A stretch of 64,000 bases of DNA from Caballeronia novacaledonica (GTDB lineage Bacteria; Pseudomonadota; Gammaproteobacteria; Burkholderiales; Burkholderiaceae). The stretch is from the NCBI RefSeq assembly GCF_900258035.1, contig NZ_OGTP01000026.1, positions 1-64,000 of the forward strand. Reading direction: 5' to 3'. The translations under genes were made by a program, and so were the position numbers. Below are positions 134 through 37,693 of this stretch, piece by piece. Each line of letters opens with the position of its first letter. Within the stretch, counting starts at the first letter, position 1. Under the pieces are notes generated by a model. It saw nothing but the letters and a program-made list of their open reading frames with translations. It ran no database searches and was not told where the DNA came from.

Positions 134-240
134 GCTGCTTTCTTTGGTTACTTTCTTTGCAGCAGCAAAGAAAGTGACTGCCGCCCCGCACAGGGGCAAC
201 GCTTATAAACCAATAACAAACCGGGATCCGGCGAAAATCC
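134..240 (+). repeat. Dispersed structured intergenic repeat, copy 1
   Basis: About 107 bases that recur at 36275-36379 (inverted) and 36789-36894 (same orientation). It contains a perfect 10-bp stem CTTTCTTTGC with a 4-base loop (AGCA here), then a second small hairpin of CCCC and GGGG, and ends in GATCCGGCGAAAATCC. Copies differ mainly in loops and spacers. It lies directly downstream of the minus-strand cobC stop and could also act as a 3' hairpin for that operon. Translations of this element give the FFAAAKKVT peptide, which I treat as spurious. Confidence 0.85.
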
Positions 241-6257: not shown

Positions 6258-6349
6258 GAGTGAAGTGTCCGTTTCGCGTGAGCGCGACCCCGCTCCCCGC
6301 GAGGACGTTGCGCGACGAACGCACCGCGCAATGAGCGCCGATGCGTCGA

Positions 6350-6595
6350 ACTCTGGCCGGTATCCGGGCTGGCGACGAATCGTCTCGCCTTCCCGCGCAT
6401 CATGCGCAGTGGCGTCGACACGTTTCTTGCAGTCACGTCCGTGCGATGAAATTCGACACGTTCGCGCCGCGAAACGCGCATGAGACGACTTGCAACTTGC
6501 GTTGCGGTCGCTTACCGTTGCGGGGGCAGCACAGGTTGGCTCGTCCCGGTTCGTCCCGAGTCGGACTTCGGAGACTTCGCTCCCTGTTTCCCGTT
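6350..6595 (-). promoter_or_regulatory. Cobalamin (adenosylcobalamin) riboswitch upstream of btuB
   Basis: Reading the minus strand, the leader shows the conserved blocks of the cobalamin riboswitch in order: AACAGGGAG near its 5' end (about 6585), GTGCTGCCCCCGCAACGGTAA in the middle (about 6520), the B12-box core GCCACTG (about 6405-6411), GGGAAGG close behind, and a GCCAGCCCGGATACCGGCC-like 3' end (about 6353-6373). It ends about 90 bases before the btuB ATG, leaving room for an expression platform acting on transcription or on the ribosome-binding site. Boundaries are approximate. Confidence 0.93.
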
Positions 6596-6905
6596 TGATT
6601 GCATCCGCGAGAATCGCGTATGCGAGCACCAAAAGTGCGGCAAGTGTAGGAGCGCGGGTTGGGGCCGTCAAGAAAACGGCTCGGGCAGTTTGGCGCGGCG
6701 CATGACGAATCAAACGAGAATCGGCCGGCCTGTCCTCATGGGCGATCACCGTCGCTCGCGTTTTCTGCACACGAATGCATGACGACATGCGCTTGATTCG
6801 AAGGATTAAGCGCGAGATCGCATGTTGTTACGTCTCGAAACGAGACATTTATCGGAAGCTCCGTTGAACCGCGCTAAAATGCGAGGTCTTTAGAGGACGC
6901 AGCAC
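6596..6905. other. Divergent intergenic region between riboswitch and zapB-like gene
   Basis: About 310 bases with no supported gene. It must contain the promoter for the btuB leader on the minus strand and that for the zapB-like gene on the plus strand. A TAAAAT hexamer at about 6875 is a possible -10 for the latter, without a good -35. AGAGGACG just before the ATG at 6906 is a weak ribosome-binding site. I see no RNA gene or repeat here. Confidence 0.5.
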
Positions 6906-7585: not shown

Positions 7586-7692
7586 GTCGTCAGCGCGCCG
7601 AGTCAATCAGCGCGCAATGTCGATCGAAAAAAGAAACCGCCGAATCGTGGCGAAGAGGCTGCACAAGGCAAACGATTGGTGTAGAGTGACGG

Positions 7693-7871
7693 TTCCCTGC
7701 CTGGTACGCCAAGGTCATATATTCCTTGAACCAATGCTACATTGGCACGGTTGCGGAACCTTGCAGCACGGGCGCGCGCGTCGCTAGTCCGATGTACCCG
7801 AAGTGTTGCTTACCGCGACCAATCTTGAACCCAGGTTCAGGATGCCGGCCTAGCGGCCGTGGCGGGGACCC
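7693..7871 (+). ncRNA. ssrS: 6S RNA (SsrS)
   Basis: The region after zapA has no open frame but matches 6S RNA in place and shape. TCCCTGCC at 7694-7701 can pair with GGCGGGGA at 7861-7868 to close the long hairpin. The 3' arm has CTTGAACCCAGGTTCA, similar to the E. coli 6S arm. A TAGAGT hexamer at 7682-7687 is a plausible -10 box, placing the start near 7693. 6S RNA mimics an open promoter and binds sigma-70 RNA polymerase in stationary phase. Ends are estimated to within a few bases. Confidence 0.87.
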
Positions 7872-7879
7872 CATTCAAG

Positions 7880-34363: not shown

Positions 34364-34393
34364 TTTACAGGCAGCAACCGCTTAACGTATCCT
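34364..34393 (+). promoter_or_regulatory. Candidate promoter of a small RNA or leader
   Basis: TTTACA at 34364-34369 (one mismatch to TTGACA), an 18-base spacer and TATCCT at 34388-34393 (two mismatches to TATAAT). It lies in the gap between the ferredoxin-reductase gene and the aminotransferase gene, upstream of a strong terminator. Confidence 0.4.
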
Positions 34394-34399
34394 TCGCGA

Positions 34400-34546
34400 A
34401 TGATCAGAATCCTGAACGCACTTCGACGTCGCCGCTCGCCGCTTCCCTAGGGATGCCGCTGGCTCGTCATGCATTTGCGCTCACGGTTCGGTCTTGCCGA
34501 AACGTACGAAATGAAGCCACGGACATTCCGTGGCTTTTGTTTTTTT
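34400..34546 (+). ncRNA. Candidate small RNA or attenuator leader
   Basis: No coding frame is convincing, but a plausible promoter precedes and a strong intrinsic terminator (34513-34546) follows. The segment also has a stem TTCGG/CCGAA at 34487-34501. A free-standing RNA of about 150 bases is one reading; the other is a leader of the downstream aminotransferase mRNA, since the terminator ends 40 bases before that ATG. A simple extended 3' end of the upstream mRNA is a third possibility. Boundaries are estimates. Confidence 0.4.
34513..34546 (+). terminator. Intrinsic terminator upstream of the aminotransferase gene
   Basis: AAGCCACGG, loop ACATT, CCGTGGCTT followed by TTGTTTTTTT. One of the clearest terminators in the window. 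It stands just 39 bases ahead of the aminotransferase ATG, with no room for a normal promoter between them. Confidence 0.9.
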
Positions 34547-35770: not shown

Positions 35771-36189
35771 TCATCCGCACGTTCGATGCAGGCGATCGCG
35801 ATGCCGTGATCGCCCTGTGGCGCGATGTCTTTCCGGAGTACGCGGATGTATCGCGGCCGCAGCGCGATCCTTCGTTGTCGATCGAGAACAAGACGAAGAC
35901 GCAGCCGGAGTTGTTCTTCGTCGGCGCGCTCGACGGCAACGTGATCGGCACGGTGATGGCCGGTTATGACGGTCATCGCGGCTGGGTGTATTCGCTGGCC
36001 GTGACGCCGTCGCTTCGTGGACGCGGTTATGGCAGCGCGTTGATGATCCACGCGGAAACCGTGCTGACGAAGCTCGGCTGCCCGAAGGTGAATCTGCAGA
36101 TTCTGTCGGTGAAGACGGAGTTGCGCGGGTTTTATGAAAGGCTCGGGTATCGGATGGATGAAGTCGTGAGCCTCGGCAAGCGGCTTTGA
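35767..36189 (+). CDS. GNAT-family acetyltransferase
   Basis: 140 residues starting at GTG, which overlaps the aminotransferase stop (GTGA). The acetyl-CoA motif appears as [17 protein letters not shown] around residues 78-94, and the C-terminus has [11 protein letters not shown]. It resembles the YpeA-type group of small cytoplasmic acetyltransferases; the substrate is unknown. Coupled translation with the aminotransferase suggests a linked role, perhaps modifying an amino-group-bearing metabolite. Confidence 0.87.
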
Positions 36190-36274
36190 ACAGCGTTTCG
36201 ATTGAGTCGCCTCGTGGTTCTTCGTTTCTTGATCGATTCAACTTAGGGAGCGCCGGGTTCTTTTGGGTGGTTCG

Positions 36275-36894
36275 GAGTTCGCCGGATCCCGTTTTCTTTT
36301 TGGTTTATTGGCGTTGCCCCTGTGCGGGGCGGCAGTCACTTTCTTTGCTGCTGCAAAGAAAGTAACCAAAGAAAGCAGCTTTTCACCGCCCGCGGTCACA
36401 CGCACGTTGGCCATGCTTGCCAGCCGCAAGTGGCCCTCGCCTAAGTGTCGCCCTCAAAGGCCCAATCGGGCTTGGCTCGTACACGGTCCGACGAGCTAGA
36501 CGTTTTAGCGCGCTGGTTCAGCACGAAAGAGCATCGGCACAGCGCTTCGCGCTGCCGCTGGGTATGCGAGGGAAACCATCGAAGAAGAAGCGCACGCGAA
36601 CCCGATTGACCCATCGGCCGCGTAGCGGGTCGGAGCTATATGGTGCTGAACCAGTTTCTTGTGTGGTGCGACGTGTCAGACCGTGCGCGAGCCAAGCCCT
36701 TATCTGCTTGCGACGGCACTCGCTATCGCCGGGCCATTAGGCCAATCGCCTGTGCCGCGGCCGGTGTGAAGTGTTTAGGCTGGGGATAGCTGTTTCTTTG
36801 GTTACTTTCTTTGCAGCAGCAAAGAAAGTGACCCCCGCCCCGGGGAGGGGCAACGCTAATAGACCACCACGAAACCGGGATCCGGCGAAAATCC
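36275..36894. repeat. 620-bp imperfect palindrome: two inverted copies of the dispersed repeat
   Basis: The outer ~105 bases of each arm (36275-36379 and 36789-36894) are the repeat seen at 134-240, in opposite orientation. The arms also match further in: GGGCTTGGCTCG at 36468-36479 pairs with CGAGCCAAGCCC at 36688-36699, and CTGGTTCAGCAC at 36513-36524 pairs with GTGCTGAACCAG at 36643-36654. All these pairs share a centre at 36583-36584, so it is one large diverged inverted repeat. No credible protein is encoded. It fills most of the gap between the acetyltransferase gene and livF. Confidence 0.88.
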
Positions 36895-36897
36895 AGC

Positions 36898-36936
36898 GCG
36901 TGTCAGGCAATTCCGCAACAAAAATTCCTGACACGC
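36898..36936. terminator. Hairpin downstream of livF
   Basis: GCGTGTCAGG and CCTGACACGC form a 10-bp stem, extended by AATT/AATT past a single bulged C. It stands 35 bases after the livF stop on the minus strand. There is no T-run after it, so it may be a mRNA 3'-end stabiliser rather than a true intrinsic terminator. Confidence 0.5.
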
Positions 36937-36970
36937 TCCGGCGAGAACGCGCCTGTTCAAACAACCGCCC

Positions 36971-37693
36971 CTACTCGCCCAGATAAGCCGCCCGCACCTT
37001 CGGATCATCAAGCATGACCTTGGCGTCGCCGGACATCGTCACCGTGCCCGAATCCATCACATAGCCGCGATTCGCCGCCTGCAGCGCGAGCCGCGCGTTC
37101 TGCTCGACGAGCAGCACGGTCAGGCCTTCCTTAGAAATTTCCCGCACCACTTCGAAGATCTTCTCGACCATGATCGGCGAGAGACCCATCGACGGTTCGT
37201 CGAGCAACAGCAGCTTCGGACGCGACAGGAGCGCGCGCGCCATCGCGAGCATCTGCTGCTCGCCGCCCGACAGCGTGCCCGCATATTGCGACGCGCGTTC
37301 CTTCAGACGCGGAAAGAAGCCGAACATGCGCTCGGTGTCCTTCTGAATCTCGGCGGTATCGTTGCGCAGATACGCGCCCATCTGCATGTTCTCCAGAATC
37401 GACATGCGCGCGAAGATGCCGCGGCCTTCCGGCACCATCGCGAGGCCGCGCTTGAGCAGTTCGTGCGTCGGCACGCCCTTGATCGACTGGCCCATGTACT
37501 CGATATCGCCGCCCGAGTACGGCTTGAGACCGGTGATGGCCTTCATCGTCGTGGTCTTGCCCGCGCCGTTCGCGCCGATCAGCGTAACCAGTTCGCCCTG
37601 CCCGACTTCCAGATCGACACCCTTCACCGCCTGGATGCCGCCGTAGTTCACCTGCAGACCCTTGACCTTCAACATTGCGCTTGGCGTCGCCAT
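36971..37693 (-). CDS. livF: Branched-chain amino-acid ABC transporter ATPase LivF
   Basis: 240 residues. Walker A GANGAGKT (residues 40-47), signature LSGGEQQM (about 143) and Walker B LLLDEP followed by SMGLSP, characteristic of LivF. With LivG it drives leucine, isoleucine and valine import. The start at 37693 shares a base with the livG stop (TAATG); an upstream frame to 37807 is not used. Last gene of livK-H-M-G-F. Confidence 0.95.
   Translation of the reverse strand: MATPSAMLKVKGLQVNYGGIQAVKGVDLEVGQGELVTLIGANGAGKTTTMKAITGLKPYSGGDIEYMGQSIKGVPTHELLKRGLAMVPEGRGIFARMSILENMQMGAYLRNDTAEIQKDTERMFGFFPRLKERASQYAGTLSGGEQQMLAMARALLSRPKLLLLDEPSMGLSPIMVEKIFEVVREISKEGLTVLLVEQNARLALQAANRGYVMDSGTVTMSGDAKVMLDDPKVRAAYLGE

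Follow-up and report, generated by a model that had tools for sequence, protein, structure and literature searches.

The window, 64,000 nucleotides of Caballeronia novacaledonica (contig NZ_OGTP01000026.1, positions 1 to 64,000), carries a palindromic element of about 620 bp between two convergent genes, identified from their encoded sequences as a probable GNAT gene (plus strand, stop at 36189) and a probable livF (minus strand, stop at 36971). The element spans about 36270..36894 on both strands and is a diverged inverted repeat with fuzzy edges, centred at about 36584. Its outer arms (36278-36374 and 36793-36889) are 97 nt long and 89% complementary. Further inward, a conserved block of the left arm at 36468..36492 (plus strand) is matched by 36675..36699 (minus strand) in the right arm (25 nt, 88%), and a second at 36513..36532 (plus) by 36635..36654 (minus; 20 nt, 85%).

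The initial annotation had described this tract as one inverted repeat with a common centre, and the outer arms and both inner pairs bear that out; its placement of the tract also holds, but the boundaries it drew, 36275-36894, are sharper than the fuzzy edges allow. The inner matches, which it had taken to be real, do not arise by chance, since the interior alone gives an arm-arm similarity of z = 6.8 against shuffles, and their pairing becomes perfect in a consensus of 30 copies. Within the window, the 24-base core of the tips has only 3 matches, compared with 0.00 expected from shuffles. A protein-coding reading was rejected, in agreement with the initial annotation: the gene caller predicted no gene within any of 30 copies from the same genome. 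Between the element and livF lies a further short inverted repeat (GCGTGTCAGG..CCTGACACGC, 36893-36941), which may be a terminator remnant. Elsewhere the window contains Rfam matches to BcKCsr7 (Burkholderia sRNA 7; 34387-34540, plus strand, 87.5 bits), as well as 6S RNA (7691-7872, plus) and a cobalamin riboswitch (6338-6649, minus).

Copies of the element and their sites

The host genome (6.78 Mb in 72 contigs) contains about 50 elements, dozens of which are nearly complete copies with 76-87% identity, and 126 core palindromes versus 0 for a reversed control pattern; at least 44 distinct complete elements could be extracted from its contig pieces. In the 30-copy consensus, both inner blocks pair perfectly over 26-27 bp and the whole is a near-perfect palindrome. 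The further copies that the initial annotation had predicted therefore exist, and together with the consensus they support its description of a dispersed, structured element built from two head-to-head copies. Across the genus, two arm types (type-6 and type-8) combine almost at random, so the element is best seen as two half-elements placed head to head. The same mixing explains why a search for arm-arm coevolution of the interior within the genome gave only a weak signal, which we set aside. In the window copy, the arm bases lying between conserved blocks belong to two different types.

The exact core occurs in 3 of 25 sampled genera of the family. Named contigs place it in many Caballeronia species, and the number of cores per Caballeronia genome ranges patchily from 0 to 141, which shows that the element is dispensable. 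In Paraburkholderia, the same tips enclose different interiors that are again inverted repeats; one P. caribensis copy has a predicted folding energy of -664 kcal/mol. At one locus of the host genome (L169, on contig C72, 10600-11850), tandem repeats of the tip's outer parts lie beside a full element and are mirrored on its two sides. Tip cores are also found at both ends of the contig from which the window is taken (window 151-174 and, beyond the window, contig positions 97575-97779), and several other contigs likewise end within these elements. The elements thus break the assembly and matter for genome finishing.

To characterize placement, we compared 89 complete elements with 200 control intergenic regions, with genes called by an in-house script. 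Only 1/89 elements lies between divergent genes versus 74/200 controls (P = 3e-13), and 29/89 lie between convergent genes versus 8/200 controls (P = 2e-10). The median distance from the element to the facing stop codon is 21 nt.

In most sister genomes, the GNAT-livF site is a gap of 45-87 bp without the element, typically with A and T runs on either side of a strong hairpin, i.e., an intrinsic terminator. One sister (L175) has the element at the same site with its interior inverted (identity 0.553 in direct orientation versus 0.894 when flipped), from which it follows that the window copy was inherited and that the interior has inverted, presumably when its tips recombined with each other. 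In a more distant clade, the same tips enclose a different interior, or the site is reduced to a collapsed hairpin scar. Presence, absence and scars are also seen at three further sites, one of which forms a tight operon junction where the element is missing. In the scars (at loci L239, L268, L269, L298, L309, L195 and L203), nothing but the outer arms is left, meeting at the GCCCC hairpin, where relatives hold the full element; the scars look like deletions between short GGGGC repeats. A target-site duplication, for which the initial annotation had suggested looking, was not recognisable at the four orthologous sites compared, where intergenic sequence is replaced with no clean insertion boundary. 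The comparison shows an element that sits beside stop codons, varies among sisters, can collapse to a scar and has an invertible interior.

Fold of the tips

A typical tip, read outward, has the order GCNGC - TTTCTTTG - GTTACTTTCTTT - GCNGC(N)GC - AAAGAAAGTGAC. Stem S2 pairs GTTACTTTCTTT with AAAGAAAGTGAC, and its foot varies by double changes (G-C/C-G, U-A/C-G, and U.G/U-A/C-G/G.U/A-U); the hairpin foot is seen in the compensatory forms GTTA/TGAC, GTGA/TTAC, CCTA/TAGG and CTTA/TGAG. A crossing stem, S1, links the upstream GCNGC to the loop, and its middle pair is U-A, C-G or G-C across genomes. A second hairpin contains an extra short crossing pairing, PK2, whose forms TGC/GCA, CCC/GGG and TCC/GGA covary.

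In the window, the left tip reads outward on the minus strand (36316..36379), comprises a predicted pseudoknot (PK1) and a hairpin (H2/PK2), and is a row of the ungapped tip alignment A2. The 5' strand of S1, GCTGC (36375..36379), pairs with GCAGC in the loop (36350-36354); it is followed by the loop L1, TTTCTTTG (36367..36374), a putative third strand whose run lengths track the purine strand in asymmetric tips elsewhere, by S2 with its loop (36335..36366; 36355-36366 with 36335-36346), and by the second hairpin, GCCCC/GGGGC (36316..36334), in which PK2 joins TGC (36332-36334) to GCA (36323-36325). The right tip reads outward on the plus strand (36789..36832), with S1 formed by GCTG (36789-36792) and CAGC (36814-36817), L1 at 36793-36800 and S2 at 36801-36812 with 36821-36832; its second hairpin (36833..36851) has PK2 in the CCC/GGG form (36833-36835 with 36842-36844). 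The two tip hairpins noted in the initial annotation are present, at 36335-36366 and 36800-36833.

Among the 41 distinct ungapped tips of A2, 98.0% of the cells at paired positions are paired, whereas shuffles give 90.7% (0/500) and slid controls do not exceed 61%; double-changed cells number 64 versus 18.8 in shuffles, and 8 pairs have double changes. The shuffle tests are inflated by kinship among the sequences, which the slid control retains. In an order-wide set of 52 ungapped tips, 94.0% of cells are paired versus 82.8% after shuffling (0/500) and at most 58% after sliding, and covariation is 0.262 versus 0.080 (0/500). S1 takes many forms in this set (GCTGC/GCAGC, TCGCC/GGCGA, CCGCC/GGCGG, CGTGC/GCACG, GTGCCC/GGGCAC, TTCCCC/GGGGAA, TGTA/TACA and others) and is paired in just 81.9% of cells, in part because some rows are shifted by one base.

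Both pseudoknot stems therefore covary above shuffled and slid controls when the copies are aligned, as the initial annotation had proposed to check, and the comparison shows that each tip, read outward, keeps a predicted H-type pseudoknot by compensatory changes in S1 and S2. We regard the existence of this fold as very probable. The initial annotation had recognised compensatory hairpin changes, but it understated the structure, which is a pseudoknot with a probable triple helix and belongs to one strand only. One could also suppose that the copies have decayed from a single perfect palindrome and that their structure is not under selection; the near-perfect palindrome of the consensus and the drift of the arms between conserved blocks would both fit. 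We find this barely credible, as double-sided changes within single tips far exceed both kinds of control and the fold is kept from one order to another and is present in one record from a different phylum.

L1 (UUUCUUU) is nearly invariant though it has no Watson-Crick partner in the model. It would probably occupy the deep groove of S2 and run in the same direction as AAAGAAA, as the third strand of a U·A-U/C·G-C Hoogsteen triplex, in which the C·G-C triple needs a protonated C. Telomerase RNA, the riboswitches SAM-II and preQ1-II and the ENE-type elements that confer 3' stability are familiar cases of a loop lying in a deep groove with U·A-U or C·G-C triples. Each of these is an individual functional RNA, whereas here the motif is the repeated, paired end of a dispersed intergenic element.

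Where the runs are symmetric, a triplex is indistinguishable from a mere copy of the S2 strand, and we therefore used tips with asymmetric runs as the test. Of 20 distinct tips with asymmetric A runs, which are partly non-independent in that several come from one Paraburkholderia genome, 18 are in the exact triplex register and 0 in the copy register (0/20000 permutations); the run classes seen are 3/4, 4/3, 2/4 and 4/2. The search left L1 run lengths free, and the model behind some loci favours a pyrimidine L1. A copy in Pasteurella multocida has opposite asymmetries at its two ends, each in the triplex register. The run lengths thus show that L1 keeps the register that a parallel triple helix of U·A-U and C·G-C triples requires.

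Run-length covariation cannot name the strand, because the same lengths would equally suit a purine strand in a pseudoknot of the complementary strand. The outward strand has 24 G·T cells versus 3 A·C cells, an excess that points to this strand; the Rfam families Bp1_684 and TwoAYGGAY are on this strand too, and we infer that the folded molecule is RNA from the outward strand. The same excess bears on a further reading, that the palindrome is a double-stranded binding site for a nucleoid or boundary protein and that the pairing mirrors the protein's two-fold symmetry. The symmetric AT-rich core and the extragenic siting would agree with such a site, but the G·T excess on one strand and the triplex register count against it, as do S1 and L1, which covary with their partners beyond the core symmetry; we consider it very improbable.

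Relatives in other bacteria and in Rfam

A covariance model of the tip (E <= 1e-4, with at most 10 matches per genome scored) matched 98/399 sampled Burkholderiales genomes and 51/158 genera, and some of these tips form outward pairs 470-570 bp apart. A wider BLAST search with consensus tips found matches in Variovorax, Chitinibacter, P. multocida, Aeromonas caviae, Pseudoalteromonas and the Burkholderia cepacia complex, and in a record of the fusobacterium Ilyobacter polytropus, i.e., in another phylum; there were no tips in E. coli. P. multocida has a complete palindromic element, and single-tip loci occur in other genera. A phage origin was rejected, as no phage record matches; one IMG/VR contig has a tip.

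Interiors are wholly different between genera, yet they are again inverted repeats. This would fit SINE-like copying through a hypothetical RNA intermediate, in which a reverse transcriptase would recognise the outward tip as a 3'-end fold and the palindrome would arise by fold-back copying; folded 3' ends act as priming signals elsewhere. We nevertheless rate this origin as improbable.

Two RNA families in Rfam overlap or adjoin the tips. Bp1_684 (RF02421), with the consensus AGAAAAGUGACC..GCCCC..GGGGC..CUAAUAGACC, fits the outer half of the tip together with the adjoining flank. It matches the outward strand at each end of the window element, below the gathering cut-off of 44 bits, at 36231..36345 (minus strand, left outward; 36.7 bits, E 2e-6) and 36822..36950 (plus strand, right outward; 33.7 bits, E 1.3e-5). 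The Rfam model starts within S2 and is without S1, L1, the pseudoknot and the second end. It derives from the Burkholderia candidate sRNA Bp1_Cand684_SIPHT, for which a possible trans-acting role was suggested and whose B. pseudomallei copy gave an RT-PCR signal (PMC3521395). TwoAYGGAY (RF01731), listed by Weinberg et al. 2010 (PMC2864571) as a probable RNA that is probably not cis-regulatory, is not matched anywhere in the window. In 5/5 Pseudoalteromonas and Aeromonas tips examined, it adjoins the outward tip on the 5' side and on the same strand, and in one locus it recurs in opposite-strand pairs; its model excludes the tip. By position and similarity, both families appear to be parts of such elements. 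A Pseudoalteromonas megaplasmid (L363, 389-2573) has tandem units of about 750 bp, each with TwoAYGGAY and a tip, among which the tip foot changes from GCATAC/GTATG to GCTTAC/GTAAG with pairing kept.

Possible function and spread

Dispersed bacterial palindromes are common and are usually described as simple hairpins. A triplex-pseudoknot tip kept by compensation in many genera would unite scattered orphan RNA annotations, would be a bacterial counterpart of stabilising triple helices and a concrete 3'-end element, and would offer a new angle on how such repeats spread. In our reading, the element belongs to a widespread family whose members are dispersed, non-coding and two-ended, have triplex-pseudoknot tips and would work as two-sided 3'-UTR modules. 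For this reading as a whole, we see the case as evenly balanced; its functional part, the two-sided 3'-UTR element, we put forward as the most likely mechanism, though as less probable than not. A transcript from the gene on either side would enter the element, traverse the palindrome and end in the far tip, where the triplex pseudoknot would block 3' exonucleases or halt the polymerase. At the window site, the element would do the job of the intrinsic terminator, and the need for an identical end on each strand would account for the palindrome. Copies would have arisen by past mobility through a hypothetical mobilising enzyme. A broader version is possible, though we lean against it: the elements would constitute an unrecognised bacterial RNA class, found across orders and in at least one other phylum, whose triple-helix pseudoknot ends define and protect the 3' ends of both flanking mRNAs and of which Bp1_684 and TwoAYGGAY are catalogued fragments.

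The initial annotation had instead suggested a REP-like or miniature transposable element. REP, BIME and REPIN sequences are built from 20-40-bp units with a GTAG or CGTC tag and are associated with RAYT transposases (PMC3733652, PMC3116915). Our elements resemble them as extragenic palindromic repeats, often 3' of genes and in inverted pairs. The core tip of our elements, a palindrome of 24-34 bp with 126 copies, mostly belongs to a much larger unit. The elements differ from REP sequences in being 620-bp palindromes with no tag and no adjacent RAYT, and REP units have no known pseudoknot. A conserved GTAG- or CGTC-type tetranucleotide is absent from the hairpin foot, whose bases vary by compensation, and the one Y1_Tnp gene of the host genome (on contig C45) has no tip in the surrounding 3.3 kb. 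Likeness to MITEs of insertion sequences extends to small size, lack of coding capacity, inverted repeats and multiple copies; sharp MITE-type ends are absent, as conservation fades outward over about 30 bases and tandem partial tips flank some copies. A REP-like or MITE identity thus finds no support. Type III antitoxin RNAs (ToxI-like pseudoknots) are tandem repeats beside an endoribonuclease toxin gene; the genes flanking the window element, GNAT and livF as read from the sequence, appear ordinary. In the open literature, we found neither the tip sequence in a matching context nor a matching case of pseudoknot-bearing repeats, and two REP surveys make no mention of these genera. Dispersed bacterial palindromes are a known kind, and ends resembling triple-helix pseudoknots are a new form, absent as such from Rfam.

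A rival reading is REPIN-like mobile DNA. Here the tips would fold as single-stranded DNA, a hypothetical single-strand transposase would cut and join the ends, and siting beside stop codons would reflect insertion tolerance. G·T pairs and pyrimidine triplexes form in DNA too. The head-to-head pairing of tips from opposite strands, a copy number that is high and patchy, and extragenic siting all fit, and spread is better accounted for than by the 3'-UTR model. However, the single Y1 transposase gene with no tip beside it, the compensating hairpin foot with no conserved tag, and the four compared sites with neither a clean boundary nor a target duplication argue against it, and we consider it unlikely.

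Besides the dispensability of the element, three points count against the two-sided 3'-UTR model. Some species have the element of site S30 within a tight operon, and a strong terminator in that position would cut off the following gene. The two tips of a read-through transcript are complementary and could pair together instead of knotting, and at single-tip loci the facing gene's transcript would carry the inward strand only. An intrinsic terminator inside the element was considered and rejected, with only terminator-like matches (5 versus 1.2 expected), and the element has no sigma-70-like promoter. Among tips from other genera, 21/27 are faced head-on, stop codon first, by the gene on their 3' side, as the 3'-UTR model expects for the paired form.
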